A stretch of 15,641 bases of DNA from Hydrogenophaga sp. (GTDB lineage Bacteria > Pseudomonadota > Gammaproteobacteria > Burkholderiales > Burkholderiaceae_C), in contig JAUXXN010000186.1 in the NCBI GenBank assembly GCA_030684755.1, positions 1 to 15,641 on the forward strand, read 5' to 3'. The notes beneath the pieces were generated by a model, which worked only from the letters and a program-made list of their open reading frames with translations, ran no database searches and was not told where the DNA came from. A program made the position numbers and the translations under genes. Below, piece after piece: positions 1-14,025 of the stretch. The stretch's first letter is position 1. Each line of letters opens with the position of its first letter.

Positions 1-110
1 ATGTGACCCGCCGTGGAGGGGCTGGACCGGCAACCCCTCTGCCAGGGGCGGTGCGACGTACCCAAAGGGGCTTGACGCGGCCAGTCGCCCAAGGCGAACC
101 CGTCAATGTA
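1..110 (+). other. GC-rich structured stretch, possible orphan SAM-I-clan-like RNA
   Basis: No convincing coding sequence is seen here. The plus strand holds several potential stems: CCCCT/AGGGG around 36-50, and TTGACG (73-78) with CGTCAA (101-106) enclosing TCGCC/GGCGA. The string CTGGACCGGCAACCCC followed by GGTGCGAC and CCC resembles from memory the core of SAM-I/SAM-IV clan riboswitches (GGCAACC ... GGTGC). No plus-strand gene follows for about 1.6 kb, and the 5' side is cut by the window edge, so a riboswitch role is doubtful. It may be a leader of unknown type or chance similarity. Confidence 0.2.
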
Positions 111-165
111 ACACGGCTAGGGAAAAACTGCAAAAAACAGCGCCTGTGCCGGTCATCAGTTCCCC

Positions 166-382
166 GCTTGTTATCTCTCTATAGCTTTAATACAAATTAG
201 TAGCAGTAGTAGAGGGACCGATTTTTTGTGAACAAGTGGGTTTTCTTCAATATAAACATGCACTTAGATCTTTCAAAAGGCTGTGCAGAGAGGCCTGCCA
301 CTCAAATTCAGAAAAGGGGACAACTTGCCGAAGCATCAAACACCTGTGTATAACTCGGTAGTTGCTAAAAAGTTATGCACAA
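166..382 (-). repeat. Origin-like repeat, copy A (DnaA boxes plus DnaA-trios), inverted
   Basis: Read on the minus strand this is the first of three related modules. In order it has a DnaA box at 373-381 in the opposite orientation (TTATGCACA on plus), CTTTTTAGCAAC, a box TTATACACA (345-353), the block AGTTGTCCCC, TGCACAG, TAAGTGC, TTGAAGAAAA, a box TTGTTCACA (227-235), a 14-nt spacer, and five trinucleotides CTA CTA CTG CTA CTA (212-198). The tail contains TATAGAGAGATAACAAGC. Positions 166-216 are identical, as reverse complement, to 7012-7062 in copy C over 51 bp. DnaA box followed by CTA-type trios is the known layout of the bacterial basal unwinding system. Function of this copy is inferred. 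Confidence 0.75.
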
Positions 383-410
383 GGTTGTGATCAACCGCTG
401 TTTGGCGGTT
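383..410. other. Two overlapping small inverted repeats beside copy A
   Basis: GGTTG-TGAT-CAACC (383-396) and AACCGC-TGTTTG-GCGGTT (393-410) are perfect short hairpins that share bases and so are mutually exclusive. They lie just past the stop of the prenyltransferase gene, where they could act as a weak minus-strand 3' hairpin. No U-tract follows, so an intrinsic terminator cannot be claimed. Confidence 0.3.
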
Positions 411-450
411 GCAGTAGGTTTGCTGTGCTCACACCAACAGCCAAAAACAA

Positions 451-1485
451 TCAGCGCAGTTGGGCCAGCTGTAAAAATCCTGCCGCCAAACCCAAGCCGT
501 GCAACAAAACGGCGGCCACGCTGAGCACCAACGCCGGTTTCAGTCGCGCGGGTTGGTGCACGTGCCAAGCCAGCCAACCAGCCGCTGCCAGGGAAAGCGG
601 CAAAGAGACCAGACCCCACAAGGCTTGTGTGGGCGGGACCAACAGCCACACCCCCGCCACCAGCCAAAGGTGAGCAGCCAGCACCAGCAGAGCGTACAAA
701 GCACTGGAGCGCACTGACCCCAGACGCACCACCAACGTGCGTTTGCCCACTTGGGCGTCTCCTTCAGCGTCTGGAAAACCATTGATCAAAAGCAACGCCG
801 CCACCAGCAGCGCAAAACCCAGCGCCACCCACGCGGGGATGGGGAAGAAGTGTCGCCGCTGTACATAGTCAGCGCCCACTACCACCAAAAACCACACCAG
901 GGCTACGGTCAGTTCGCCCAAACCACGCGACATCAACTTCAGCGGTGGCGCCGAATATGCCCAGGCCAGCGCCAGCCCTGCCATGCCCAGGAGCAACACA
1001 CCACCGCCGGTCTTCACCGCCAACAGCAAACCCGCTGGCACCAGAAAAACCAACAAGGCTGTGGCCAGTTCGGCGGTTTGCCGTTCGTTCACCACACCGG
1101 TCTGTATCAAGCGGGAGCCGCCCGTGAATGGGAAGATGCCTTGCCGGTTGGCCGCGTCGGCGCCGTTGCGCGCATCATGCAAATCGTTCAACACATTGCC
1201 TGCAGCATGCGCCAGCACAGCCAGAAAGGTGGCGCCCAGTGCCAGTGGCAGATCCAGCCCACAGCCACACGCGGCTGCGGTAGCGGTACCCAGAACGCAG
1301 GCCACCACCGTGAGCAGCAAAAACGCCGGTCGCGTCATGCGCCACCACACCCGTGTCTGCCGCCAACCCCATGCAGTCTTCGAAGGAACTGGCGAAGCCA
1401 TCTCAGGCTGATGATCTGGAGATGCCGTGAGCGGTGGTGGTTGCGTCTTCATCACGTGGCAGTATGGTGCGTTCGAAATCCACAT
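451..1485 (-). CDS. UbiA/MenA-family membrane prenyltransferase
   Basis: The 344-residue product is very hydrophobic, with about eight or nine membrane segments. It carries the two Asp-rich signatures of UbiA-superfamily prenyltransferases: GNVLNDLHDARNGAD (N97, D101, D104) and NGFPDAEGDAQVGKRTL (D239, D243, K248, R249). TGGSRLIQTG and YSAPPLKLMSRGLGE resemble MenA (1,4-dihydroxy-2-naphthoate prenyltransferase) more than UbiA. The family moves a polyprenyl chain from its diphosphate to an aromatic acceptor in the inner membrane. The acceptor is uncertain: no other menaquinone gene is in view, and many relatives use only ubiquinone. The start is ambiguous: ATGs at 1485, 1452 and 1401 are in frame, none has a strong ribosome-binding site, and the first 40 residues look poorly conserved in style. 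It diverges from minC. The family call is secure; the substrate is not. Confidence 0.85.
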   Translation of the reverse strand: MWISNAPYCHVMKTQPPPLTASPDHQPEMASPVPSKTAWGWRQTRVWWRMTRPAFLLLTVVACVLGTATAAACGCGLDLPLALGATFLAVLAHAAGNVLNDLHDARNGADAANRQGIFPFTGGSRLIQTGVVNERQTAELATALLVFLVPAGLLLAVKTGGGVLLLGMAGLALAWAYSAPPLKLMSRGLGELTVALVWFLVVVGADYVQRRHFFPIPAWVALGFALLVAALLLINGFPDAEGDAQVGKRTLVVRLGSVRSSALYALLVLAAHLWLVAGVWLLVPPTQALWGLVSLPLSLAAAGWLAWHVHQPARLKPALVLSVAAVLLHGLGLAAGFLQLAQLR

Positions 1486-1486
1486 G

Positions 1487-1541
1487 CATTGTTAAATAGC
1501 AATCTGTATACCGTCTTGCGCGCGAATCCAACATTGTTAAA
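1487..1541. repeat. 10-bp direct repeat CATTGTTAAA
   Basis: CATTGTTAAA occurs at 1487-1496 and again at 1532-1541, 45 bp apart, next to the prenyltransferase start in the 237-bp divergent spacer (1486-1722). It could be a pair of regulator sites or coincidence. No clear sigma-70 promoter stands out in this spacer for either gene. Confidence 0.3.
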
Positions 1542-1584
1542 GGACGGCGCGTGGTCAGAAAATACCCGTATTCGGCAGCTGTTC

Positions 1585-1602
1585 ACACTTGGCTACAAGT
1601 GT
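1585..1602. promoter_or_regulatory. Perfect inverted repeat ACACTTG-N4-CAAGTGT upstream of minC
   Basis: Two 7-bp arms separated by GCTA form a perfect dyad about 120 bp upstream of the minC ATG, in the spacer between the prenyltransferase gene and minC. Its size and symmetry fit a binding site for a dimeric regulator. It could also form a small RNA hairpin, but no T-run follows. The regulator is unknown. Confidence 0.35.
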
Positions 1603-1722
1603 CTGACGGTGATGCTGCGCCCGGCTGATAAGATGCCGGAGCTTGGGTAGCGGGCTTGAAAGGGATTCGCGTCCGTTGCTTTTTTCCTTGGAATCCCCGG
1701 TTTTGAGTCTGTAGCACCATCC

Positions 1723-2481
1723 ATGTCCGTTGCATTCGCTGCCAACGCCCCGACCACCTTCGAGATCAAGAGTGCCAACTTGCCTCTGGTGGCTCTGTTG
1801 CTCAAATCCGCCAATTTGTCCCGTCTGGATGCAGAGTTTGCCCAACACTTCGGTGATGTACCCGATTTTTTTGACCATGATTCACTGGTCATAGACCTCT
1901 CTCCTCTTCAATCGGTTGAACCGGACGCCAGCCTTGACTTTTCGGCACTGGTGCACATGTTGCGCCAATACAGGCTGACACCCATGGCCGTGCGTGGAGG
2001 TACCGCAGAACAAATGGCCCGGGCCATCGACGCAGGTCTCATTTCAGCCCCAGACGCTGCGGTGCACCGTGTGGCGGCGACGCCCACAGCCAGTTCGGCC
2101 GCATCCGACACACAAACGGCAGCGGTTCCACCCGCCGATGCATTGATTGTTGACAAACCTCTTCGCTCAGGCCAGCAGGTCTATGCCCGAGGGCGTGACT
2201 TGGTGTTGCTGGCCATGGTCAACCCTGGAGCTGAAGTCATGGCTGACGGTCACATTCATGTTTACGCTCCCCTGCGCGGCAAGGCCATTGCAGGTGCTCG
2301 CGGCAACACCGAAGCCCGAATTTTTGCCCTCAACATGGCGCCCGAGTTGATCTCGGTTGCGGGTATTTACCGCACCTGCGAAGTTCCTTTGCCGGCCACG
2401 GTGCTGGGCAAAGCAGCCCAAGTTCGCTTGGTGCTTGGGGAGGATGGGGAAAAGCTTGTGATCGACCCTTTGTCTGTGTGA
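1723..2481 (+). CDS. minC: Septum site-determining protein MinC
   Basis: MinC inhibits FtsZ assembly at the cell poles and is brought to the membrane by MinD. The 252-residue product has the MinC N-terminal domain (about 1-105, opening with TFEIKSANLPLVALLLKS), a variable linker rich in Ala, Thr and Pro (about 110-145), and the C-terminal beta-helix domain (about 148-250). The latter includes LRSGQQVYARGRDLVLLA and GHIHVYAPLRGKAIAGARG, which carry the RSGQ and G-rich surface that binds MinD. It is first in minC-minD-minE, with a 58-bp gap to minD. The ATG at 1723 has no obvious Shine-Dalgarno sequence but fits the family N-terminus exactly. Confidence 0.95.
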   Translation: MSVAFAANAPTTFEIKSANLPLVALLLKSANLSRLDAEFAQHFGDVPDFFDHDSLVIDLSPLQSVEPDASLDFSALVHMLRQYRLTPMAVRGGTAEQMARAIDAGLISAPDAAVHRVAATPTASSAASDTQTAAVPPADALIVDKPLRSGQQVYARGRDLVLLAMVNPGAEVMADGHIHVYAPLRGKAIAGARGNTEARIFALNMAPELISVAGIYRTCEVPLPATVLGKAAQVRLVLGEDGEKLVIDPLSV

Positions 2482-2539
2482 TGCCGTACTCCATCCGATT
2501 GGCGCCACACACCACCGTGCTTCTGAAAGAATTTTCACC

Positions 2540-3355
2540 ATGACCAAAATTGTTGTCGTTACCTCTGGCAAAGGCGGGGTGGGTAAAACCACCACCAGCG
2601 CCAGTTTTTCGACCGGTCTCGCCATGCGAGGCCACAAAACCGCTGTGATTGACTTCGATGTCGGTTTGCGCAACCTCGATCTCGTCATGGGCTGCGAACG
2701 CCGTGTGGTCTACGACCTGATCAATGTCATCCATGGTGAAGCCAACCTGAACCAGGCGCTCATCAAAGACAAGCAGTGCGAGAACTTGTATGTGCTGGCC
2801 GCCAGCCAAACGCGCGACAAAGACGCGTTGAGCCAGGAAGGTGTGCACAAAGTGCTGACCGACTTGGCATCCATGGGTTTTGAATACATCATTTGCGATT
2901 CGCCCGCTGGTATTGAAACGGGTGCCCTCATGGCCATGCACTATGCCGACGAAGCGCTGGTTGTGACCAACCCCGAAGTTTCCAGCGTGCGCGACTCTGA
3001 CCGCATTCTGGGCATGTTGGGCAGCAAGACTCAGCGCGCCATTGAGGGCAAGGAACCCATCAAGGAACATCTGCTGATCACGCGCTACAACCCCACGCGC
3101 GTGGCCGAGGGGCAGATGCTTTCACTAGAAGACATTCAAGACATCCTGCGTGTCAAGCTGATTGGGGTCATTCCCGAGAGCGAAAGCGTGTTGACCGCTT
3201 CCAACCAAGGAACACCAGCGATCCACCTCAAGGGCACCGACGTGGCTGAGGCTTACAACGACGTTGTCGACCGCTTTCTCGGTACCGACAAGCCGCTGCG
3301 CTTCATTGATGCTGAAAAAGCCAGCTTTCTCAAGCGCATATTTGGAAGGAAGTAA
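2540..3355 (+). CDS. minD: Septum site-determining ATPase MinD
   Basis: MinD is a membrane-associated P-loop ATPase of the ParA/MinD superfamily. It dimerises with ATP on the membrane, recruits MinC, and is released by MinE. The 271-residue product shows the deviant Walker A motif GKGGVGKTT (residues 10-18, with signature K11 and K16), the switch region IDFDVGLRNLD near 38-48, and CDSPAGIE at the Walker B site near 118-125. A C-terminal amphipathic membrane-targeting helix (KASFLKRIFGRK) ends the protein. Length matches the family. The gene ends three bases before minE, and AGGAAG in its last codons serves as the minE ribosome-binding site. Confidence 0.97.
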   Translation: MTKIVVVTSGKGGVGKTTTSASFSTGLAMRGHKTAVIDFDVGLRNLDLVMGCERRVVYDLINVIHGEANLNQALIKDKQCENLYVLAASQTRDKDALSQEGVHKVLTDLASMGFEYIICDSPAGIETGALMAMHYADEALVVTNPEVSSVRDSDRILGMLGSKTQRAIEGKEPIKEHLLITRYNPTRVAEGQMLSLEDIQDILRVKLIGVIPESESVLTASNQGTPAIHLKGTDVAEAYNDVVDRFLGTDKPLRFIDAEKASFLKRIFGRK

Positions 3356-3358
3356 GGT

Positions 3359-3619
3359 ATGTCGCTCTTGTCATTCTTGCTTGGTGAAAAAAAGAAAACA
3401 GCCAGTGTCGCCAAAGAGCGGTTGCAGATCATCCTGGCGCATGAGCGCGGTGGCCGAAATAAGGACGAGCCTGATTATTTGCCCGCGCTACAACGCGAGC
3501 TGATGGCTGTGATCAGCAAATACATCAAGATCAATCCCGAAGACATCAAGGTCATGCTGGAACGTGAAGACGATCTGGAAGTGCTTGAAGTCAAGATTGA
3601 GTTGCCCGAACGCAAATAG
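3359..3619 (+). CDS. minE: Cell division topological specificity factor MinE
   Basis: MinE stimulates MinD ATPase and drives the pole-to-pole oscillation that restricts MinC to the poles. The 86-residue product has the N-terminal membrane-binding segment MSLLSFLLG, then the MinD-contact helix [14 protein letters not shown] (about 17-30). The topological-specificity dimerisation domain follows (about 35-86), with [19 protein letters not shown]. Length and order match the family. It is the last gene of the min operon. The AGGAAG in the minD end and AGG at 3355-3357 precede its ATG closely, so translation is likely coupled to minD. Confidence 0.97.
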
Positions 3620-3646
3620 ACGCTGAACCAGTCAGCTTCCAAAGCA

Positions 3647-3682
3647 AAAAAAGCTCCAAAACAAAAGTTCTGGAGCTTTTTT
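3647..3682. terminator. Bidirectional intrinsic terminator between minE and the RRM gene
   Basis: A 12-bp perfect stem pairs AAAAAAGCTCCA (3647-3658) with TGGAGCTTTTTT (3671-3682) around a 12-nt loop. It gives a U-tract on both transcripts: six T on plus after minE, and seven A on plus (3646-3652), read as U from the minus-strand RRM gene. The two genes converge here, so one hairpin can stop both. Confidence 0.9.
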
Positions 3683-3685
3683 CAG

Positions 3686-3706
3686 GACTCAACGCCAAGT
3701 TGAGTC
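3686..3706. other. Hairpin in the RRM gene 3' untranslated region (inner)
   Basis: GACTCAAC-GCCAA-GTTGAGTC is a perfect inverted repeat with 8-bp arms and a 5-nt loop. It sits directly beside the bidirectional terminator on the RRM-gene side. It has no U-tract, so it is unlikely to be a separate intrinsic terminator. It may stabilise the 3' end of the RRM mRNA or bind protein. Confidence 0.55.
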
Positions 3707-3716
3707 AACTGGGGTA

Positions 3717-3736
3717 CAACGGCATGGTTGCCGTTG
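3717..3736. other. Hairpin in the RRM gene 3' untranslated region (outer)
   Basis: CAACGGCA-TGGT-TGCCGTTG is a perfect inverted repeat with 8-bp arms and a 4-nt loop, 16 bp past the RRM stop codon. With the hairpin at 3686-3706 and the terminator it makes three consecutive stems within 90 bp. No U-tract follows. Confidence 0.55.
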
Positions 3737-3752
3737 ACAGAAGTTGCAGGGC

Positions 3753-4121
3753 TTAGTAGCCGCCGCGACCGCCGCCGCCGCCGTAGCCGCCACCGCCGGA
3801 ACGGTCGCCGCCATAACCACCACCGCCACCTGAGCGGTCACCGCCGTAGCCGCCGGTGCGGGGAGGACGTGCCTCCATCGGGCGAGCTTCGTTCACTGTG
3901 ATGCTGCGGCCGCCGAGCGACTGGCCATTCATGCCGTTGATGGCAGCTTGTGCTTGGGCGTCATTGCCCATTTCAACGAAACCGAAACCTTTGGAACGAC
4001 CCGTGTCGCGCTCCATCATGACTTTGGCGCTGCTGACAGAGCCGAATTCGCTGAAAGACTGTTGCAGGTCTTCGTCGCGGACGGTGTACGGCAGATTGCC
4101 GACGTAAAGTTTATTGCCCAT
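3753..4121 (-). CDS. Glycine-rich RRM RNA-binding protein
   Basis: The 122-residue product is a single RNA-recognition motif with a Gly/Arg/Tyr tail. RNP2 is LYVGNL (residues 5-10) and RNP1 is KGFGFVEM (44-51), with the aromatic residues that stack on RNA. Residues from about 88 onward are low-complexity, with the unit GGYGGDRSGGGG occurring twice. This resembles cyanobacterial Rbp and plant glycine-rich RNA-binding proteins, which are often cold-induced and act on RNA folding or stability; here the target is unknown. The start is well supported by GAGGAG about 5 nt before the ATG. The gene converges on minE and has a strongly structured 3' end. Confidence 0.92.
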   Translation of the reverse strand: MGNKLYVGNLPYTVRDEDLQQSFSEFGSVSSAKVMMERDTGRSKGFGFVEMGNDAQAQAAINGMNGQSLGGRSITVNEARPMEARPPRTGGYGGDRSGGGGGYGGDRSGGGGYGGGGGRGGY

Positions 4122-4202
4122 GGGGACTCCTCAAAAACACGTAAAACAAAGCGATGGGGTCCCGAAAGCACAACAAACCAAAAAAGTACCGCCGTAGCGC
4201 GC

Positions 4203-4248
4203 GAAACTGACCGATCACCTAACCCGTGCAGCCAGTGAAACTGACCGA
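4203..4248. repeat. 12-bp direct repeat upstream of the RRM gene
   Basis: GAAACTGACCGA occurs at 4203-4214 and 4237-4248 (TCGGTCAGTTTC on the RRM coding strand), 34 bp apart start to start. It lies about 80-130 bp upstream of the RRM start, in the 318-bp divergent spacer 4122-4439. This could be a tandem operator or part of the 5' leader. Apart from this and a possible ABC1 promoter, nothing else was recognised in the spacer. Confidence 0.4.
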
Positions 4249-4291
4249 ACGTTTGGATTATGCGCCTATAAAAACCGATCTGCTGAAATTC

Positions 4292-4320
4292 TTGCTGCAC
4301 AACGTTGCTGGTTGGATAAA
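4292..4320 (+). promoter_or_regulatory. Possible sigma-70 promoter for the ABC1-family gene
   Basis: TTGCTG (4292-4297), a 17-bp spacer and GATAAA (4315-4320) form a plausible -35/-10 pair about 120 bp before the ATG at 4440. Each hexamer matches consensus at about four of six positions, so this is a weak call. Confidence 0.3.
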
Positions 4321-4439
4321 ACGAGGACTGCGCCAGCCTGTCTCTGTCGTTCAACGGGCTTGAACACCGCTTGCACGGTGTGTTTCTCATTCCCTGCTTC
4401 CAACCCGCAGAGGCATGGCCTCCCGTCTATCATCCGGCC

Positions 4440-6143
4440 ATGCTGATCGAAACGCTGGGCGCTGCCCGAGACATGGGGCGGCTCAATCAAATTTTTGGAG
4501 TGCTGATTCGCCACGGTTTTGGCGACAGCGTGCGCCGCCTTGGCCTTGCCGACCCGCTTGAGCGCGCCGGACATGCCCTGAAATGGGACCACGCCGCCGA
4601 CCTCGCCCGCCTTGAACCCCCGGTGCAGGTTCGCCGGACCCTCGAAGAACTTGGCCCCGCCTTTGTCAAGCTCGGCCAAATTTTGGCCGGTCGCGCCGAC
4701 TTGTTTGGTCCCGAATACATCGCTGAATTCGAAAAACTGCAAAGCCACGTGCCCGCCGTGCCACTGAACAGCCTGCGCGCCCAGCTGCGCGAAGACCTGG
4801 GTGGTGAGCCTGAAGACGTGTTTGCCCGCTTCGACCCCGAGCCACTGGCCGCCGCTTCCATTGCGCAGGTGCACCGCGCCCAGCTCAAAGACGGCACCGA
4901 AGTGGTCGTCAAAATCCGCCGCCCCGGCATCACCCACACCATCGAAGCCGACCTGCGCCTGCTCGCCCGCCTCGCCGCCGTGGCCGAAGCCGAAATACCC
5001 AGCCTCAAGCCCTACCGGCCCCAACAACTGGTGCGCGAACTGGCGCGATCGCTCAAGCGCGAGCTGGACTTGGCCAGTGAATGCCGCAACGCCGAGCGCA
5101 TCGCCGCCAACCTCGCACCCTTGCCCTGGATCGTGGTGCCCAAAGTCCATTGGCAGCACACCACCGAGCGCGTCAACGTGCAAGACTTTGTGGGTGGTGT
5201 GGCCGGTAACGACTTGGCGGGTCTCGACAGCCAAGGTTTTGACCGCAAACTGCTGGCCCAACGTGGCAGCCAGGCCGTTTTGAAAATGATTGTGCAAGAC
5301 GGTTTTTTTCACGCCGACCCGCACCCCGGCAACGTGTTTTATTTGGAAGGCAACCGCATCGCCTTCATCGACTTCGGCATGGTCGGACGCCTCTCGCAGC
5401 GCCGCCGCGACGAACTGCTCAACCTGCTGCTTGGCCTGGTTGAACGCAACTCGCAAACCGTGGCCGACGTGCTATTGGACTGGACCGGCGACGAACACGG
5501 GGTCAACCTTGCGCAACTCGAAACAGAAATCGAAACCTTCGTAGACCAGTACCACGGCATCCCGTTGGCCCAGCTCAATCTCGGCCAAATGCTGGCCGAC
5601 GTGACCACCATCTTGCGCGAACACCACCTCGGATTGCCCACCGACATGGCCCTGCTCATCAAAGCCTTTATCACCCTGGAAGGCATGGGCCGAGGGCTCG
5701 ACCCTGCGTTTCACACGACCACCGAAGCCTTGCCGCTGCTGCGCCAAGTGGTGCGCACCCGCTACAAACCCCAAGCGGTGGTCAGCCGGGCTTGGCAAAC
5801 CCTACGCCGTACCCTGGCTGTGGCCGAACAGCTGCCCCACGACGTCAGCCGCTTGCTGCGCAACGCCCGCCGGGGCCGTCTGCACGTGGGCATTGAGCTG
5901 GCCCATCTCAAACGCGTGGGCGACCAGATCGACCGAGCGGCCAACCGTCTCACCATGGCGCTGGTCATCGCGGCACTCATCATCGGTTCGTCCATCGTCA
6001 TGACCGTGCAAGGCGGACCTACCCTGTTCGGCTTGCCCGCCTTCGGCTTCATCGGCTTCGCCAGCGCCTTCGTGGGCGGCCTGTGGCTGGTGCGGGCCAT
6101 CTGGCGCAGCAGCAAAGGGCGGGATGTGGTGGATGGGGAGTGA
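4440..6143 (+). CDS. ABC1/UbiB-family atypical kinase-like protein
   Basis: The 567-residue product belongs to the ABC1/ADCK/UbiB family, which uses ATP to support ubiquinone and other lipid metabolism at membranes. It has the family KxGQ motif (FVKLGQ, 75-80), the Ala-rich nucleotide loop AAASIAQVH (138-145), a conserved Lys in VVVKIRRPG (K158), the HADPHPGN catalytic-loop-like motif (291-298) and DFG (311-313). Two C-terminal hydrophobic segments (about 504-523 and 530-552) fit a UbiB-type membrane anchor. The N-terminus differs from that of typical proteobacterial UbiB as I know it, so this may be a second ABC1 paralogue. The ATG at 4440 is preferred; a 23-codon upstream extension to 4371 has no family-like residues. 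Its plus-strand coding sequence is C-rich, unlike copA. Confidence 0.9.
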   Translation: MLIETLGAARDMGRLNQIFGVLIRHGFGDSVRRLGLADPLERAGHALKWDHAADLARLEPPVQVRRTLEELGPAFVKLGQILAGRADLFGPEYIAEFEKLQSHVPAVPLNSLRAQLREDLGGEPEDVFARFDPEPLAAASIAQVHRAQLKDGTEVVVKIRRPGITHTIEADLRLLARLAAVAEAEIPSLKPYRPQQLVRELARSLKRELDLASECRNAERIAANLAPLPWIVVPKVHWQHTTERVNVQDFVGGVAGNDLAGLDSQGFDRKLLAQRGSQAVLKMIVQDGFFHADPHPGNVFYLEGNRIAFIDFGMVGRLSQRRRDELLNLLLGLVERNSQTVADVLLDWTGDEHGVNLAQLETEIETFVDQYHGIPLAQLNLGQMLADVTTILREHHLGLPTDMALLIKAFITLEGMGRGLDPAFHTTTEALPLLRQVVRTRYKPQAVVSRAWQTLRRTLAVAEQLPHDVSRLLRNARRGRLHVGIELAHLKRVGDQIDRAANRLTMALVIAALIIGSSIVMTVQGGPTLFGLPAFGFIGFASAFVGGLWLVRAIWRSSKGRDVVDGE

Positions 6144-6176
6144 CGCACTCACGGGCATGGCCAGCGGACTTACCCA

Positions 6177-6392
6177 CAAGTCTATTGATAACTTTTTATC
6201 AACCACTGTGTTATCCACAAAACAGCGGGGCGCCTGCCAGTTGTCCCCATTGCTGCTGCCAGACAACAGGGGTTTCTGCACAGGCTTTTGCGTGGCTTAA
6301 GTGCTTAATTTGGTTGAAGAAAACCCGCTTGTCCACACAAAAAGGTGACCTCTACTACTGCTACTAATTTGTAATAGTACTTATAGAGAGAT
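6177..6392 (+). repeat. Origin-like repeat, copy B
   Basis: Order of parts: a short palindrome TTGATAA-CTTT-TTATCAA (6185-6202) in place of the first DnaA box, a perfect DnaA box TTATCCACA (6211-6219), AGTTGTCCCC, TTCTGCACAGG, TAAGTGCTT, TTGAAGAAAA, a DnaA box TTGTCCACA (6329-6337), a 14-nt spacer, and trios CTA CTA CTG CTA CTA (6352-6366). The tail TTATAGAGAGATAG is more diverged than in copies A and C. The distance between the two boxes is 109 nt, exactly as in the other two copies. Confidence 0.8.
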
Positions 6393-6572
6393 AGGAGGCG
6401 GGAACCAAAAACCTGTTTTTCTGAAAATTTAAGACTTGCGAGCGGTTCCGGCCGCACGGCCCGTGCCGAACACCGTCAATGGTGTGCAAAAAATTTGAAA
6501 ACCCTCCGTGGTGGACGCCCTGGCCTAATCGGCATTCAACGTGGACAGCGGCAAGCCTGTGCGCAGTGCAAC

Positions 6573-6838
6573 CTACAGTGCGCACAGAGCGGGCACCACC
6601 GCTGGTGAATTTTTCAGTGCCACCAGAGTGGCCTCGGCGCAAGCCACGCCTGCCGGTTGGGTGCCAGGCACCAGCCAGAGCAAGGCCATCGACGCTTCCG
6701 GCACAAACCTCATGCCCAGCTCATCCATGTGGGCCTTGAGGTCCAGGGAGCGGACCGGCTTGCGCGACCGCATGAAGGTGTGCATCTCGTCCACAGCGGT
6801 GGTGGCTGCGGCTTGTTTGTTGCCCCACTGGTTTTCTT
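6573..6838 (-). pseudogene. Coding-like remnant between origin copies B and C
   Basis: On the minus strand an open frame of about 88 codons runs from the edge of copy C to a stop at 6573-6575. Its first two thirds have strongly GC-biased third positions and a plausible protein texture (MHTFMRSRKPVRSLDLK, then MDELGMRFVPEASMALLWLV). The frame continues upstream only into the repeat, and no start with a ribosome-binding site is seen, although in-frame ATGs exist near 6780. I do not recognise the family. The likeliest reading is a gene whose 5' part was replaced by copy C; a short intact gene starting at an internal ATG is possible. Confidence 0.35.
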
Positions 6839-6839
6839 C

Positions 6840-7062
6840 ACAAGCCTGTGTACAACTTTTTAACAACCACATGGTTATCCACAGGTTCAGGCTGTTTTGC
6901 CCAGTTGTCCCCTTTTCTGTCGGCAAGCAACAGGGCGGGCTGCACAGGGTTTGGCAGGGGCTAAGTGCTTGTTGGGGTTGAAGAAAATGGGGTTTTCCAC
7001 ACAAAACTGCCCCCTCTACTACTGCTACTAATTTGTATTAAAGCTATAGAGAGATAACAAGC
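6840..7062 (+). repeat. Origin-like repeat, copy C
   Basis: Parts in order: a reversed box TGTGTACAA (6847-6855), CTTTTTAACAACC, a perfect DnaA box TTATCCACA (6875-6883), AGTTGTCCCCTTTTCTG, CTGCACAGG, TAAGTGCTT, TTGAAGAAAA, a perfect-consensus box TTTTCCACA (6993-7001), a 14-nt spacer ending in a C-run, trios CTA CTA CTG CTA CTA (7016-7030), and the tail TATAGAGAGATAACAAGC. It shares 51 identical bases (7012-7062) with copy A. Box-to-box distance is again 109 nt. Confidence 0.82.
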
Positions 7063-7089
7063 AGGAAGCCCAACAGGGCAAGCGGGGCG

Positions 7090-7144: not shown

Positions 7145-9823
7145 TTACAGGGTGTGTGTCACCAGTTTGAAGTCGGGGTCTTCGGCAAAAGTTTTCACTT
7201 CGTAGCCCAGGCCCTTCATGAGCTTGAGCATGCCGGGGTTGTTGGCCAACACCAGGCCTTCAATTTCAGTCAGGCCTTTGTCGCGGGCTTCTTCCATGAT
7301 GCTGAGCATGAGCCGCGAGCCCAGGCCTTTGCCGTTGAAGTCGTCGGCCACCAACAATGAGAACTCGCAGCTCGATTTGTCGGGGTTGGTGATGTAGCGC
7401 GACACACCCACGATGCGTTCGGTTTCCACCGTTTCACCGTCAGCGCTGTTTTTGCGGGTGCGGTGAATGGCAACCAGGGCCATTTCGCGGTCGTAATCGA
7501 TCAAGGTGAGCCGCGAGAGCATGGATGGCGGAAGTTCTTTGAGCGATGAGACGAAGCGGAAGTACCGGCTTTCGGGTGACAGCTCTTTGACCAGCGTTTG
7601 CACCATCTGCGCGTCGTCGGGGTGGATGGGGCGGATGGTGTACTCACCACCGCCGCGCAGCGGCCACACCTGCTCATAACGGGCTGGGTAGGGCAGGATG
7701 GCCAGGTGGGCGTAGTTGCGAGCGGTGGCGGGTGCGTTGTCGATGACGATACGGGCGTCCACCGCCACTGCGCCGGAGGCGTCTACGATGATGGGGTTGA
7801 TGTCCATCTCGCGCAGCTGGGGCAGTTCGCACACCATTTCTGACACGCGCAGCAGTACATGTTCCAGTGCGTCCATGTCCACTGCGCTGGCGCCGCGCCA
7901 TTCGCCCAGGGTTTCTGCCACGCGGGATCGTTCAATGAGCCGACGTGCCAGAAACTGGTTGAGCGGTGGCAGCTCCATGGCTCGGTCGTTGATAAGCTCG
8001 ATCATGGTGCCGCCGGCGCCAAAAGCGATGACGGGGCCGAACGGGTCGTCGGTGACGAGGCCGATGTAGAGTTCGCGCCCGCGCTTGTTGGGCGCCATTT
8101 TCTGAATGGTGACACCGTTGATGCGGGCGCTGGGCTGGGCTTTGGCCACGGCCTGGATCATGGTGTTGTAGACGTCGCGCACCCCCACAGCGTTGAGCAC
8201 GTTCAGGGCCACGCCGTTCACATCGCTTTTGTGGCTGATGTCTGGAGAATCGATTTTGAGCGCCACTGGGTAGCCCAACTGGGTGTCGATCATCATGGCT
8301 TCGTTGGCGCTGCGGGCCAAGATGGTTTGTGTGACCGGGATGTGAAAGGCCGAGAGCAGGGCCTTGGATTCCATTTCGGTGAGCACTTTGCGCCGCTCGG
8401 TGAGCACGTTTTCAATCAGCAGGCGAGCGCCTTCAATGTCGGGCTTGGCCAGGGTGGACAGGGGCGGCGGCGTTTGTTGCAGCAGTTGCTGATTTTCGTA
8501 GAAGCTGGCGATGTTGCCAAAGGCGCCTACGGCGGCTTCGGGAGTGCGAAAGCTGGGAATGGCCGCAGCCGCCAACACTTCGCGGGCTTCGATGACGGAG
8601 GCGTCGCCCATCCAGCAGCACAGCAGCGGTTTGCTCATCTTGCCTTTGAGGCTGGCCATGGCGCGGGCCACGTCGGCGGCGTCGGTGCCGGCTTTGGGCG
8701 AGTGCACCACCAGCACGCCGTCGATGGTGCGGTCGTGGCCGGCGGCGTCGATGGCGGCTTGGTAGTGCGCGGGTGTGGCTTCTTCCGACAGGTCGATCAG
8801 GTCGCACAGCGAGGCCAAGGGCGCCAGCTGGGGCTGGAGGGCTTTGACGGCATCGGGGGCTAAGCGACCGAGTTCAAGTTTAATTTCGCTGATCCAGTCG
8901 GCCGCCAGCACGCCGGGGCCGCCGCCGTTGCTGACGATGGCCAAGCGTTTACCCACCGGGCGGTAGCGCGAGGCGAGGCACTTGGCGGCTGAAAAAAGTT
9001 CTACAAACGAGCGCACGCGCACCGCGCCCGCGCGTCGCAGGGCGGCGTCGAACACGTCGTCGCTGCCCACGATGGTGCCGCTGTGTGTTTGCGCAGCTTG
9101 GTTGCCAGCGGTTTTGCGCCCGGCTTTGAGCACCACCACCGGTTTGGCGTTGGCGGCCGCGCGCAGCGCGCTCATGAAGCGCCGGGCGTTGTAGATGCCT
9201 TCCATGTAGACGACGATGCTGTGGGTTTGAGCATCGGAGGCCAGGTAATCGAGCACCTGCGACAAGTTGACGGAGGTGTTGGGACCGAGCGAGACGACGG
9301 TGGAAAAGCCGACTGCGTTGAGGCTGGCCCAGTCGAGGATGGAGGCGGTGAGCGCGCCCGACTGTGAAACGAGGGCCAGCGGACCGACGGAGGTCAGTGG
9401 GCCTGCAATGCTGGCGTTGAGGCCGCTGCGCGGGCGCTGAAAGCCCATGCTGTTGGGGCCAAGCAGGTGCATGCCGTGTCGGCGCGCCACGCGGTGCATC
9501 TCTAAGGCCTTATCGGCGGGTGTGCCGCTGCCCACGACAAGGGCTGCTCGGCATTTGATGCGGCCAGCGAGTTCGAGCGCTTCAAGGGCTTCGTCGGGGG
9601 GCAGCACGATGATGGCGAGGTCGGCCCGGGTTTGCGCCAGGTCGGCCAGGGTGCCGGTGGTGTGGATGTCGAGAAACACCAGCTGGCCGTTGAAGCGCTG
9701 CTGGGTGAGCGCGGCCACCAGCGCCCGCGCTTGCGTTGTTTGAAGTTCGGGGCTATCGCTGTTGCCGGCAAAGACGGCGATGGTTTCGGGTTGAAAGAGG
9801 GGGGTGAGGTAATGTTTGTCCAT
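7145..9823 (-). CDS. Pat-type protein lysine acetyltransferase (acyl-CoA synthetase-like plus GNAT)
   Basis: The 892-residue product fuses an NDP-forming acyl-CoA synthetase-like region (about 1-710) to a C-terminal GNAT domain (about 728-892). This is the layout of Pat/PatZ (YfiQ), which acetylates lysines such as that of acetyl-CoA synthetase using acetyl-CoA. Visible parts are a CoA-binding N-terminal domain, LLGPNSMGF (120-128), ALVSQSGALTASILDW, a His in AAQTHSGTIVGSDD (H247) aligning with the phospho-His of active acyl-CoA synthetases, and an ATP-grasp segment (ALKIDSPDISHKSDVNGVAL). The GNAT acetyl-CoA loop is FNGKGLGSRLM. Retention of His leaves open residual ligase activity. The ATG at 9823 is chosen because the protein aligns from MDKHYLTPLF; a further 78 codons upstream look non-coding. 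The HDAC-family gene is 152 bp upstream on the same strand. Confidence 0.9.
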   Translation of the reverse strand: MDKHYLTPLFQPETIAVFAGNSDSPELQTTQARALVAALTQQRFNGQLVFLDIHTTGTLADLAQTRADLAIIVLPPDEALEALELAGRIKCRAALVVGSGTPADKALEMHRVARRHGMHLLGPNSMGFQRPRSGLNASIAGPLTSVGPLALVSQSGALTASILDWASLNAVGFSTVVSLGPNTSVNLSQVLDYLASDAQTHSIVVYMEGIYNARRFMSALRAAANAKPVVVLKAGRKTAGNQAAQTHSGTIVGSDDVFDAALRRAGAVRVRSFVELFSAAKCLASRYRPVGKRLAIVSNGGGPGVLAADWISEIKLELGRLAPDAVKALQPQLAPLASLCDLIDLSEEATPAHYQAAIDAAGHDRTIDGVLVVHSPKAGTDAADVARAMASLKGKMSKPLLCCWMGDASVIEAREVLAAAAIPSFRTPEAAVGAFGNIASFYENQQLLQQTPPPLSTLAKPDIEGARLLIENVLTERRKVLTEMESKALLSAFHIPVTQTILARSANEAMMIDTQLGYPVALKIDSPDISHKSDVNGVALNVLNAVGVRDVYNTMIQAVAKAQPSARINGVTIQKMAPNKRGRELYIGLVTDDPFGPVIAFGAGGTMIELINDRAMELPPLNQFLARRLIERSRVAETLGEWRGASAVDMDALEHVLLRVSEMVCELPQLREMDINPIIVDASGAVAVDARIVIDNAPATARNYAHLAILPYPARYEQVWPLRGGGEYTIRPIHPDDAQMVQTLVKELSPESRYFRFVSSLKELPPSMLSRLTLIDYDREMALVAIHRTRKNSADGETVETERIVGVSRYITNPDKSSCEFSLLVADDFNGKGLGSRLMLSIMEEARDKGLTEIEGLVLANNPGMLKLMKGLGYEVKTFAEDPDFKLVTHTL

Positions 9824-9975
9824 GGGGGACTCGGGTTGCTGCAAAAAAGATGCGGTGGCGTGTTGATTTATGCCTGAAACATCATGCCCAAAACCCATGC
9901 CTTTGGACAGCAGCCCGCCCAGCGGCGGAGCCCCTGAATCCCACCAGAGGCGGGAAAAAGGGTATGGGGTAGATG

Positions 9976-10902
9976 TCAGTCGGCTCCAATCAACACACGT
10001 ACATGGGCGGCCACACTGCGAGCCAGGGGGCTGAGCACGTAGCCGCCTTCCAGGCAAGAAATGACGCGGCCTTTACCGTGTTTATTGGCGATTTTCATGA
10101 GTTCTTGGGTGACCCAGGCGTAGTCTGCTTCGACCAAACCCAGGTTGCCCATGTCGTCTTCTCGGTGGGCGTCAAAGCCGGCCGAGATGTAGATCAATTC
10201 CGGGGCAAAAGCGTCGAGAGCGGGCACCCAGTGCTGGGTGACGGCTTCGCGAAAGGCGTCGCTGCCAGAGCGGCTGGGCAGGCCGACGTTGACCATGTTG
10301 TCGCCGGTGGCGGTTTCGCCGTTGAACGGATAGAGGCCTTTTTCAAAAATGGAGCACATGAGCACGCGCTCGTCGCCCTGAAAAATGTCTTCGCTGCCGT
10401 TGCCGTGGTGCACGTCAAAGTCGATCAGCGCGACGCGCTGCACACCGTGGACGTTGAGCGCGTGGCGAATACCCACGGCCACGTTGTTGAAGAAACAAAA
10501 GCCCATGGCGGCGGAGCGTTCGGCGTGGTGGCCGGGCGGGCGTACGCAGCAAAACGCGGTGGGTGCGTCGCCGGCGAGCACAAGGTCGGTGGCTTGCACG
10601 GCGGCACCGGCGGCGCGCAGGGCGGCGGTGAGGGTGTGGGGACACATGTTGGTGTCGGGGTCTACCGCGTGCAGGCCTTCTGCGGGCGAGGCGTTGAAGA
10701 TTTCACTGACGTAGAGCGAAGCGTGCGCGCGACTGAGCTGTTCTTCGGTGGCCAGCGGGGCGTCGTACGGGATCATGTAGTCCAGCAGGCCCTTGACCAA
10801 CAGGTGGTCGTTGATGGCGCCCAGACGGTCGGGACATTCGGGGTGGTGCGGGCCCATGTCGTGGCGGGCGCAGTCGGCATGGGTGATGTAGGCGGACAGC
10901 AA
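9976..10902 (-). CDS. Histone deacetylase/AcuC-family zinc deacetylase
   Basis: The product (308 residues) is a class II-like HDAC-fold amidohydrolase that removes acetyl groups from lysine or small acetylated amines. All active-site motifs are present: PPGHHAERS (H125, H126), DFDVHHGNG (zinc ligands D163 and H165), SAGFDAH (zinc ligand D244) and LEGGY (Y288). I chose the TTG at 10902 because GGAG lies 7 nt before it and it gives the family N-terminus LSAYITHADCARHDMGPHHPECPDRL. An in-frame ATG at 10953 would add 17 Pro-rich residues without a ribosome-binding site. The next gene downstream is the pat-type acetyltransferase, suggesting a lysine acetylation/deacetylation pair, as with acuA/acuC in Bacillus. 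The substrate is not known; acetylpolyamine hydrolase activity is an alternative. Confidence 0.9.
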   Translation of the reverse strand: MLSAYITHADCARHDMGPHHPECPDRLGAINDHLLVKGLLDYMIPYDAPLATEEQLSRAHASLYVSEIFNASPAEGLHAVDPDTNMCPHTLTAALRAAGAAVQATDLVLAGDAPTAFCCVRPPGHHAERSAAMGFCFFNNVAVGIRHALNVHGVQRVALIDFDVHHGNGSEDIFQGDERVLMCSIFEKGLYPFNGETATGDNMVNVGLPSRSGSDAFREAVTQHWVPALDAFAPELIYISAGFDAHREDDMGNLGLVEADYAWVTQELMKIANKHGKGRVISCLEGGYVLSPLARSVAAHVRVLIGAD

Positions 10903-12457: not shown

Positions 12458-13063
12458 TCAGCTTTGTTTTTGCATGCCAGCTTCACAGCCCATGCCGCCC
12501 ATGCTGCCCATGCCTTTGTGGCCGCCTTTGCCGCCCATGCGGTGCTCACCTTTCATGCCAGCGCGCTGCATGCCGCCGTGGGCTTGGGTGTCAAACACTT
12601 TTTGCTGCTCGGGCGTGAGCGCGGCGTAAAAGCTTTTGGTGGCATCGATGCGCTGGGTCATCTGAGCGTCGCGCTCGGCCTTTAGGGCTTGCATTTTGTC
12701 CAGGCGCTCAGGGGTGGTCAGTTTGGACCAGTCTTCACGCGCACCGGCTTTCATGGCGCGGGGCTCGTGCGCTGTGCGTGCCACAAAGGCATTCCAGGCA
12801 GGTTCCTGGTCGGCAGTGAGCTTCAGCTCGGTTTTCAGTTGTGCCTGGCGCTCAGCATGGTATTTCTGCATGCTTTCCATGCGCTGAGCCTGGCGTTGGG
12901 CCATGTCGGGCTGGCCGGCTGCGGTGCTGCCCTGGGCCATGTGTTGTGCGTGCATGCCGTGCGACATGCCGCCCATGCCTTGTGCAATGGCGGTGGCTGA
13001 AATGCCCACAAAGGCGGTGGCAAGTGCGGCGGCGATCAAGCCTTTTTTGGAAATCAGTTTCAT
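12458..13063 (-). CDS. Spy/CpxP-like LTXXQ periplasmic protein, Met/His-rich
   Basis: The 201-residue product begins with a signal peptide (MKLISKKGLIAAALATAFVGISATAIA, likely cut after A27). The mature part is mostly helical with two LTxxQ motifs (LTADQEPAW and LTPEQQKVF), the mark of Spy/CpxP-type envelope-stress chaperones. Unusually, both ends carry metal-liking clusters: GMGGMSHGMHAQHM just after the signal peptide, and a tail of about 40 residues with many Met, His and Gly and one Cys (HGGMQRAGMKGEHRMGG onward). Together with cueR, copZ and copA next door this suggests a periplasmic copper-binding chaperone. That role is inferred. The ATG at 13063 is set by GGAG about 8 nt upstream and by the signal peptide; an upstream ATG at 13111 is inside a hairpin and rejected. 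Confidence 0.85.
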   Translation of the reverse strand: MKLISKKGLIAAALATAFVGISATAIAQGMGGMSHGMHAQHMAQGSTAAGQPDMAQRQAQRMESMQKYHAERQAQLKTELKLTADQEPAWNAFVARTAHEPRAMKAGAREDWSKLTTPERLDKMQALKAERDAQMTQRIDATKSFYAALTPEQQKVFDTQAHGGMQRAGMKGEHRMGGKGGHKGMGSMGGMGCEAGMQKQS

Positions 13064-13096
13064 GGTGTTCACTCCTGGGTCGTTGGTTGAAAGACG

Positions 13097-13130
13097 TTCC
13101 AGAAATCGCATCGGTTGTGTGTTTCTGGAA
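13097..13130. promoter_or_regulatory. Perfect inverted repeat upstream of the Spy-like gene
   Basis: TTCCAGAAA (13097-13105) and TTTCTGGAA (13122-13130) form 9-bp perfect arms around 16 nt. They start 34 bp upstream of the ATG at 13063. Either a 5'-leader hairpin or an operator for a dimeric regulator fits. No clear -35/-10 pair was found in the spacer 13064-13236. Confidence 0.45.
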
Positions 13131-13225
13131 TGGCTTCAGTGTGCGAGTCCTGTGTATCGGCTCGGTGACCTATTGAATCGCTTCTGTAAAGATTTGTTCC
13201 GTTTGCGCGCAGGGGTGGTGTGGCT

Positions 13226-13241
13226 CTTGACGCAGGTCAAG
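13226..13241. repeat. Inverted repeat CTTGAC-GCAG-GTCAAG at the cueR 3' end
   Basis: Perfect 6-bp arms with a 4-nt spacer overlap the cueR stop codon (13237-13239). The minus strand contains TTGACC, a possible -35 for the Spy-like gene, but no -10 follows at the right spacing. It may be a hairpin at the copZ-cueR mRNA end. Confidence 0.3.
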
Positions 13242-13695
13242 GGTGGGCCAGGTCGTCCAGGATTGGGCAGCCGGGACGCCCATCGCCAGGGCACAGGTTG
13301 AGTAAACCGTCCAAGCTGCGTTGCATGGCTTGCAGCGCTTCAATGCGTTGGCTCAGTTCGTCGCGGTGTTTCTGGGCAATGCGCTTCACACTGGCGCTGC
13401 TGCGACGGCGGTTGTGCCACAGGCCCACCAGCTCGGCAATGGCGTCTAGGCCAAAGCCCATGTCGCGCGAGCGGCGGATGAAGCGCAGCGTGTGCACATC
13501 GGCCAGGCTGTACTGGCGGTAGTTGTTGTCGGTGCGGTTGACCGTGCCCAGCAGGCCGAGCGATTCGTAGTGGCGCAGCATTTTCGGGGAAATGCCGCTG
13601 AGCCGCGCCGCTGAGCCAATGTTGACCGGCCAAGCGTTGACCGCCGCCAGCGACGGGTCGGTGTCTTGGGTGGGCGTGTGGTGGCAGGTTTTCAT
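13237..13695 (-). CDS. cueR: Cu(I)-responsive MerR-family regulator CueR
   Basis: The 152-residue product is a MerR-family activator that senses Cu(I) and untwists promoters with 19-bp spacers. The N-terminal winged helix-turn-helix spans about 24-90 (NIGSAARLSGISPKMLRHYESLGLL), followed by the long dimerisation helix. The metal-binding loop LCPGDGRPGCPI has C135 and C143 with the same spacing as C112/C120 of E. coli CueR. A Ser in RRSSASVK (S100) matches the monovalent-metal signature. The first 22 residues, with Cys and two His, extend beyond the usual start. The ATG overlaps the copZ stop as ATGA, so translation is coupled and copZ-cueR is one operon. Two CueR-type boxes flank the copZ/copA divergence. 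Confidence 0.9.
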   Translation of the reverse strand: MKTCHHTPTQDTDPSLAAVNAWPVNIGSAARLSGISPKMLRHYESLGLLGTVNRTDNNYRQYSLADVHTLRFIRRSRDMGFGLDAIAELVGLWHNRRRSSASVKRIAQKHRDELSQRIEALQAMQRSLDGLLNLCPGDGRPGCPILDDLAHP

Positions 13696-13889
13696 GGAGC
13701 CACGTTGTAGCCCTCTTCACGAATGGCTTCAGCCACCGCTTCGCGGGGTTGTTCGGTGTCCACTTCGACCCGGTTCTGGATGCGGTCAATGCTGACGACG
13801 GCTTGGGGGTCAAGCAGTTTGATGGCGGTGGTGACGGCTTTTTCGCAGTGACCGCAGGTCATGCCTTGCACGGAAAAAATCTGGTTCAT
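13692..13889 (-). CDS. copZ: Cytosolic copper chaperone CopZ (HMA domain)
   Basis: The 65-residue product is a single heavy-metal-associated domain with the ferredoxin-like fold order and GMTCGHCEKAV; the CxxC pair is C12 and C15. Such proteins bind Cu(I) in the cytosol and hand it to CopA or CueR. It is transcribed away from copA, starts 67 bp from its CueR-type promoter core, and overlaps cueR by 4 bp. A weak GGAA lies before its ATG. Confidence 0.9.
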   Translation of the reverse strand: MNQIFSVQGMTCGHCEKAVTTAIKLLDPQAVVSIDRIQNRVEVDTEQPREAVAEAIREEGYNVAP

Positions 13890-13925
13890 GGTGTGTTCCG
13901 GTGGGTAGAGATAGACGATGTGCCC

Positions 13926-13956
13926 ATGCTCGGGCTTGACACGGTGTCAAGGTCAA
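13926..13956 (-). promoter_or_regulatory. CueR-type promoter for copZ-cueR
   Basis: On the minus strand the -35 TTGACC (13956-13951) is followed by a 19-bp spacer and a weak -10 GAGCAT (13931-13926). The spacer contains the dyad CTTGACAC-C-GTGTCAAG (13935-13951). Half-sites ACCTTGA and TCAAGCC flank 7 bp, as in CueR operators. The long spacer is typical of MerR-regulated promoters. Confidence 0.7.
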
Positions 13957-13988
13957 GTTGCTGAAAAAAGAACGATACACCTTGTCGC

Positions 13989-14019
13989 TTGACCTTCCTA
14001 CTGGGGGAAAGCTTATGCT
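13989..14019 (+). promoter_or_regulatory. CueR-type promoter for copA
   Basis: TTGACC (13989-13994), a 19-bp spacer and TATGCT (14014-14019) form a MerR-type promoter. Half-sites ACCTTCC and GGAAAGC flank 7 bp, closely matching the E. coli copA CueR operator (ACCTTCC-N7-GGAAGGT). The expected transcription start is about 14026, which is the A of the copA ATG. Confidence 0.85.
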
Positions 14020-14025
14020 GTGGGA

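Follow-up and report, generated by a model that had tools for sequence, protein, structure and literature searches.

Where does a bacterium start copying its chromosome if its DnaA boxes and DnaA-trios lie around the division-site genes, with no dnaA beside them? Textbooks give a bacterial chromosome a single origin and place it, as a rule, at dnaA. The stretch of DNA analysed here (the window) comprises 15,641 nt of a Hydrogenophaga sp. assembly (GCA_030684755.1, contig JAUXXN010000186.1, designated C94; the assembly has 3.62 Mb in 689 contigs and is 82.6% complete), and it holds three copies, A, B and C, of a module built from DnaA boxes and trios next to minCDE. The original prediction, made from the letters alone, was of a DnaA-trio origin detached from dnaA around the min genes, and it left three options, a multipartite origin, a secondary origin or a DnaA-titration locus. 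The detached origin is upheld by what was found in relatives, and a primary chromosomal origin (oriC) is favoured over a secondary origin or a titration site. We consider that the locus is very probably the primary oriC of a Hydrogenophaga-type bacterium, situated away from dnaA and next to minCDE, because the same module occupies the dnaA-dnaN gap elsewhere, because it was recovered in every one of the 68 family genomes tried, and because the strand asymmetry pooled over relatives steps at the module.

The three copies have the same order of parts: a first DnaA box (box1), 109 nt, a second box (box2), 14 nt, five trios and an AT-rich tract, the latter 62-66% AT in all three. Box1 and box2 start 118 nt apart in 3/3 copies, the spacer between box2 and the trios is 14 nt in 3/3, and the 15-nt trio tract CTACTACTGCTACTA (CTA CTA CTG CTA CTA) is identical in 3/3, whereas the 109-nt interval, which aligns without gaps, has a pairwise identity of just 61-64%. 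Places, strands, box spacing, spacer, shared trios and the divergence between the boxes were all as predicted. Of the 33 box and trio columns, 30 are kept in all three copies, as compared with 92 of 156 for the module as a whole (hypergeometric P 1e-5). The boxes are TTATACACA and TTGTTCACA in module A, TTATCCACA and TTGTCCACA in module B, and TTATCCACA and TTTTCCACA in module C, and those of A are the weakest. In the accessible part of the source, the basal unwinding system (BUS) is defined by a box with at most two mismatches, a spacer of at most 16 nt (most commonly 13) and at least three trios (PMC8287927). TTGTTCACA, TTGTCCACA and TTTTCCACA are within two mismatches, and the spacer and the trio number of all three copies fall inside these limits. 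A strict module scan gave no match in 3.45 Mb of mononucleotide-shuffled sequence. Blastn and a profile search, each of which recovers the three copies, found no fourth strong match in the host assembly; a repeat scattered widely over the genome, the finding that the prediction had named as telling against an origin, was thus looked for genome-wide, and the three copies stand alone. The DnaA-box clusters sit in a non-coding stretch, where they merely overlap mechanical open reading frames. An RNA element was rejected because the window has no Rfam family at gathering scores.

Is the module confined to this strain? Counts for the family refer to the host's family in the genome collection searched. 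With copy C as the query, blastn gave matches in 25 of 200 family genomes at E 0.001 (host included), and in 62 of 67 genus genomes at E 1, where many matches were weak or short. Profile R1, which is sequence-only and built from 50 modules, found one to three modules in 68/68 family genomes (31 of the genus, including the host, and 37 belonging to 31 other genera), in keeping with the one locus per chromosome expected of an oriC; the 68 were chosen as complete or as earlier matches, some having supplied the profile, and are no random sample. Two or three modules were present in 30 of these genomes and a single match in 38, a single-copy count that is affected by the stricter filters of this search, which lose weak matches. 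All copies lie on one contig within 40 kb in 28 of the 30 multi-copy genomes, with a span below 1 kb in 12 and of 2-40 kb in 16, and on different contigs in the other two. An inverted copy is present in two of these 28, G000 and G224; the latter, the second genus genome with inverted modules, has them at 107729 (+) and 120030 (-) of contig C115, 12.3 kb apart. Three direct-repeat modules are spread over 29 kb in the single-contig genome G004 (C1:40052-69420). G264 has a tandem pair of modules separated by 587 bp, and its dnaA is 42 kb away. Among 91 modules from Hydrogenophaga, Acidovorax and kin, the box distance is 118 in 60 and 119 in 31, and further conserved box-like sites occur about 30 and 63-65 nt after box1. 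On these counts, the module looks like the oriC unwinding unit of the family.

As the original prediction had it, no dnaA lies in the window: the host dnaA-dnaN genes are on a separate contig of 3.6 kb (C349), which is without a module. A place beside dnaA is usual for an oriC, not obligatory. Where dnaA and the module share a contig (23 of the 26 genomes searched with DnaA), they are at least 38.7 kb apart in 20 (38.7-458.6 kb) and within 160 bp in three, and in the 12 genus relatives measured the distance is 42-210 kb. The largest of the 23 distances, 459 kb, is that of G058 (C1:1785672). Of the 24 loci of relatives given by the first family search, 10 have the module in the gap from dnaA to dnaN. 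A strict scan of 27 dnaA loci (26 genomes, the host twice) found a module in one, G174, and the profile search added modules at dnaA in G017 and G164; the profile had no match at dnaA in any of 15 genus genomes. In a MinD search, no more than 3 kb separated minD from the nearest module in 14 of the 15 genus genomes (about 20 kb in G246); among 11 genomes outside the genus, of which G017 had no MinD match, this held just for G015, and the link to the min genes is therefore mainly a genus trait. The exact pattern of box, 14 nt and trios was found at 84 loci in 257 Gb scanned: 10 near dnaA/dnaN, 63 in the neighbourhood of min, LTXXQ or acyl-CoA synthetase (acs) genes, and 11 in neither. Nine of the 10 dnaA/dnaN loci come from records titled outside Burkholderiales (Poribacteria, Acidimicrobiaceae, Cocleimonas twice, Thiotrichaceae, Jorgensenbacteria, Epulopiscium, Oscillospiraceae and Christensenellaceae), so outside the family the pattern falls mostly at canonical origins.

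Does strand asymmetry switch at the module or at dnaA? The raw GC skew of the window turns from negative to positive near 6.1-6.6 kb, a flip that is largely gene direction and weak alone, because coding-strand third-position skew averages about -0.1 in these genomes and most genes to the left of the modules point rightward, most of those to the right leftward. Raw GC skew was for this reason rejected as decisive evidence of an origin. The corrected measure is third-position GC (GC3) skew from which the coding term of each genome has been removed, and it was pooled over eight genomes with module and dnaA well apart, from sampled stretches within 700 kb rather than whole chromosomes. The pooled value was -0.009 (standard error, se, 0.009) beyond dnaA, -0.006 (se 0.006) from dnaA to the module and +0.0375 (se 0.006) past the module, and it rose from +0.008 (se 0.010) in the 20 kb before the module to +0.072 (se 0.010) in the 20 kb after it. 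The switch expected at an oriC is therefore present in the pool at the module, with no step at dnaA. G058, G246, G114 and G227 agree singly on a step at the module; in G058 the corrected skew is -0.021 (se 0.011) between dnaA and module and +0.037 (se 0.014) past the module. A second set of eight Hydrogenophaga genomes, taken within about 10 kb, gave +0.023 (se 0.013) on the left and +0.130 (se 0.015) on the right. With a genus-wide coding term, the window itself has +0.25 (se 0.03, 6 genes) on the right.

Several results weigh against an origin at the module. Singly, G214 and G264 are without a step there, G260 has no step, G190 places the step at the module weakly, and G003 has just a negative left side. 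The pooled value on the dnaA side is close to zero and not clearly negative, and in the second set that side is even slightly positive; moreover, related Hydrogenophaga genomes are not independent, because they share neighbouring genes. The left of the window, at -0.15 (se 0.09, 6 genes), is not significant, and the corrected estimate for the window comes from 12 genes in total. As a speculation, the near-zero dnaA side could be a mixed stretch left by an origin moving out from dnaA. Two genes of the window depart from the typical coding GC3 skew of about -0.1, ubiA with an unusual positive value (+0.316) and the RRM gene with a very negative one (-0.590), and their homologues in the genome G259 have the same skew signs.

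Which of the modules would be the start? G259, the nearest relative (DnaA 98% identical), has modules at 39 and 79 kb with 40 kb between them. Its corrected skew is near zero left of the first module (+0.025, se 0.026), -0.064 (se 0.015) between the modules, and +0.123 (se 0.030) past the second, acs-side module. In the window, corrected skew is positive for the genes past C and tends to negative values, which are not significant, for the genes from A to B. From skew and the comparison with G259, it is likely that the acs-side module is the main start, although skew here cannot separate B from C. The stretch between the G259 modules contains type I-F CRISPR-Cas genes (Cas1f, Cas3f, Csy1, Csy2 and Csy3 by NCBIfam; L198:6495-18480) and a repeat array with a 60-nt period, along with other genes in the 40 kb.

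The relationships of the copies were analysed in a tree of 91 modules from 54 chosen loci, 27 of which were chosen for having two modules. The 27 upstream modules of these two-module loci, from Acidovorax and kin, form one clade (support 100/95). The downstream modules of the same 27 loci fall outside it and form no single clade: 20 group together (95/84), five are nearer the upstream clade and two nearer Hydrogenophaga, with some of the forks weak. The separation of the upstream clade from the downstream modules implies that both were inherited side by side for long in Acidovorax and kin, where two-module origins look old. All 37 Hydrogenophaga modules are in one clade (100/100), which implies that copies turn over.

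How might such a locus work? Each module would act as a complete basal unwinding system. DnaA would bind the box cluster, that is, box1, the box-like sites some 30 and 63 nt further along, and box2; a DnaA oligomer starting at box2 would then extend over the spacer of 14 nt to reach the five trios on one strand, and the AT-rich tract beyond the trios would open, after which the helicase would be loaded. We infer this chain of binding, unwinding and loading from B. subtilis and other species; what the present analysis shows is the anatomy and the locus. Judging from skew and G259, the main start would be the acs-side module or modules, C or B plus C. When the ubiA-min-aarF block was inverted, module A would have become separated from the others with all its elements kept, and because it kept them its probable role is that of a secondary or auxiliary start or of a DnaA-binding site. 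A further suggestion, which we make tentatively and hold to be doubtful, is a distributed origin, in which the two or three complete modules on the chromosomes of this family, separated by as much as 7 kb here and by 40 kb in a close relative, would provide several interchangeable starts at one locus, with more than one of them loading helicase or with DnaA shared between them. If this were true, modules could be lost, split or inverted without loss of initiation, and it would explain how the origin could leave dnaA.

The extra copies could instead be rearrangement leftovers that no longer start replication, with a single acs-side module as the origin, and to this we give a substantial chance, somewhat short of even. 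The 38 of 68 genomes with one match fit it, though the stricter filters lose weak ones, as does the skew of G259, negative between the modules and positive past the second, so that long-term firing looks single-copy; the turnover of copies within the one clade of 37 Hydrogenophaga modules points the same way. It is less easily reconciled with the 30 of 33 box and trio columns kept by the window copies while the interval drifted to 61-64%, or with the clade (100/95) in which the 27 upstream modules of Acidovorax and kin stand apart from the downstream ones.

Several DnaA boxes away from dnaA, intergenic and in multiple copies, are what would be seen at a DnaA titration or DnaA-ATP control cluster of the datA/DARS type, with the real origin at dnaA. 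We take such a control site to be a box cluster without an unwinding element, whereas all three copies here carry trios and an AT-rich tract; in addition, the module is in the dnaA-dnaN gap in other genera, that gap has no profile match in 15 genus genomes, and no pooled corrected skew step occurs at dnaA, which together make this explanation very unlikely. The lack of a profile match at dnaA in 15/15 genus genomes and of a pooled step there equally makes us give little credence to a secondary origin besides a working one at dnaA, with two distant starts per chromosome, even though dnaA is 42-210 kb off in the 12 genus relatives. Two box-like sites were seen by eye upstream of the host dnaA, and these presumably serve self-control of dnaA. 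Copies in direct and inverted orientation, with a block inversion between them, could also recall a dispersed or mobile repeat, such as an insertion remnant or a plasmid or phage origin. This is hardly credible for three copies that are alone in the assembly, that blastn at E 0.01 matched to none of 72,556 plasmid and 50,697 phage records, and that belong to an element lying no farther than 3 kb from minD in 14 of 15 genus genomes.

A primary oriC of this kind is reminiscent of several known systems and differs from each. We take the parts of the bipartite oriC of B. subtilis and H. pylori to be sub-regions around dnaA that serve one start. The accessible part of the source describes separated DnaA-box clusters there (PMC4403523), as are found here; unlike in those species, each part here is complete, the parts are 0.3-40 kb apart, and dnaA is tens to hundreds of kb off. 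Like the BUS defined in B. subtilis, the modules have a box, a 14-nt spacer, five trios (four of them CTA, the complement of 3'-GAT-5') and an AT-rich tract, known here from sequence. Unlike it, they have an extra box at a fixed distance of 109 nt upstream, and 30 of 68 genomes carry complete modules in twos or threes per chromosome, whereas the published BUS program, in the part of its description available, screens to one candidate in almost all genomes (PMC8287927). The portion of the DoriC survey available lists putative double origins, for example Ralstonia pickettii with a hemE-side and a dnaA-side oriC (Gao 2015). The likeness is in having more than one predicted origin with one not at dnaA; unlike R. 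pickettii, in which one origin is still at dnaA, the present bacteria have modules that are paralogous and share a single locus remote from dnaA. Single-chromosome Vibrio cholerae strains have two working origins, according to the accessible part of the report (PMC6284228), and thus also more than one origin, here predicted, on a natural chromosome. Those origins are of different types and derive from two chromosomes, unlike the same origin unit multiplied here. Our literature search, which covered few subscription papers, had no title on an origin at min genes or on a Hydrogenophaga oriC among the matches listed, and as far as the literature was searched a multiplied, movable origin module across a family would be new.

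The family offers a set of natural experiments, with the module at dnaA-dnaN in some genera and about 40-460 kb away in others, in one to three complete copies, and arranged in tandem, inverted or with a CRISPR-Cas island between. Cultured, harmless strains make it directly testable by what route origins move and whether both of two equal unwinding modules fire. An oriC assigned to these bacteria from the position of dnaA or from raw GC skew could be put in the wrong place.

What, then, brought modules to both sides of the min genes in the window? The features of the locus are collected in Table 1. The usual gene order in the genus is aarF(-) minE(-) minD(-) minC(-) [ubiA(+)] module(s)(+), then acs-GNAT(-) or LTXXQ(-), and named Hydrogenophaga records from the exact pattern scan have matching gene order. 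Because the left flank of the window matches sequence beyond aarF in relatives, the comparison supports an inversion of the ubiA-minCDE-aarF block here, which would have left module A 6 kb from B and C and whose junctions would be near 133-163 and 6143-6175. The original statement that the modules bracket the division genes is literally true, as a product of this inversion; in the relatives compared, the modules are on one side of min. Against the inversion, the expected outer flank was found in just two of the six relatives compared, and the order is incomplete in the nearest relative, with aarF unmatched in 109 kb of G259. Misassembly is an unlikely source of the inverted block, because the modules are merely about 75% alike. 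One reading is that the inversion arose by recombination between inverted module copies flanking the block. In the tree, module A falls with the copy on the acs side of G259 (95/85), yet its flank runs into ubiA like the other G259 copy, and gene conversion may account for this conflict. The spacer between B and C resembles the G259 stretch that adjoins the cas genes, between the two modules of that genome.

Table 1. Coordinates of modules, flanks and genes in the window
Feature	Position	Strand	Remarks
Left flank	14-132	+	78% matches to L213:3060-3178 and L212:2625-2743
Module A	163-390	-	75% identical to C over 228 nt
Module A parts	box1 345-353; box2 227-235; 14-nt spacer 213-226; trios 198-212	-	AT-rich tract beyond trios
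ubiA-family prenyltransferase gene	451-1485	-	Pfam PF01040 and synteny; within putative inverted block
minC	1723-2481	+	Pfam MinC_N/MinC_C
minD	2540-3355	+	Pfam CbiA/ParA-type ATPase
minE	3359-3619	+	Pfam MinE
RRM RNA-binding protein gene	3753-4121	-	Pfam PF00076; within putative inverted block
aarF/ubiB-like (ABC1 kinase) gene	4371-6143	+	Pfam PF03109; end of putative inverted block, adjoining module B
Module B	6175-6404	+	73% identical to C
Module B parts	box1 6211-6219; box2 6329-6337; spacer 6338-6351; trios 6352-6366	+	
B-C spacer	6440-6825	+	Two matches in G259:C64:44060-44634, 75% and 83%
Module C	6838-7067	+	acs-side copy; main-origin position judged from relatives
Module C parts	box1 6875-6883; box2 6993-7001; spacer 7002-7015; trios 7016-7030	+	
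Acyl-CoA synthetase (ATP-grasp)-GNAT fusion gene	7145-10057	-	Right of module in many Hydrogenophaga loci

Further to the right in the window, the LTXXQ gene, a MerR regulator and a P-type ATPase gene (12458-15639) belong to a set that stays near the origin in many Hydrogenophaga loci, and the LTXXQ gene is also near the modules in Acidovorax loci. We take the LTXXQ gene to be CpxP/Spy-like and the P-type ATPase gene to be copA-like.

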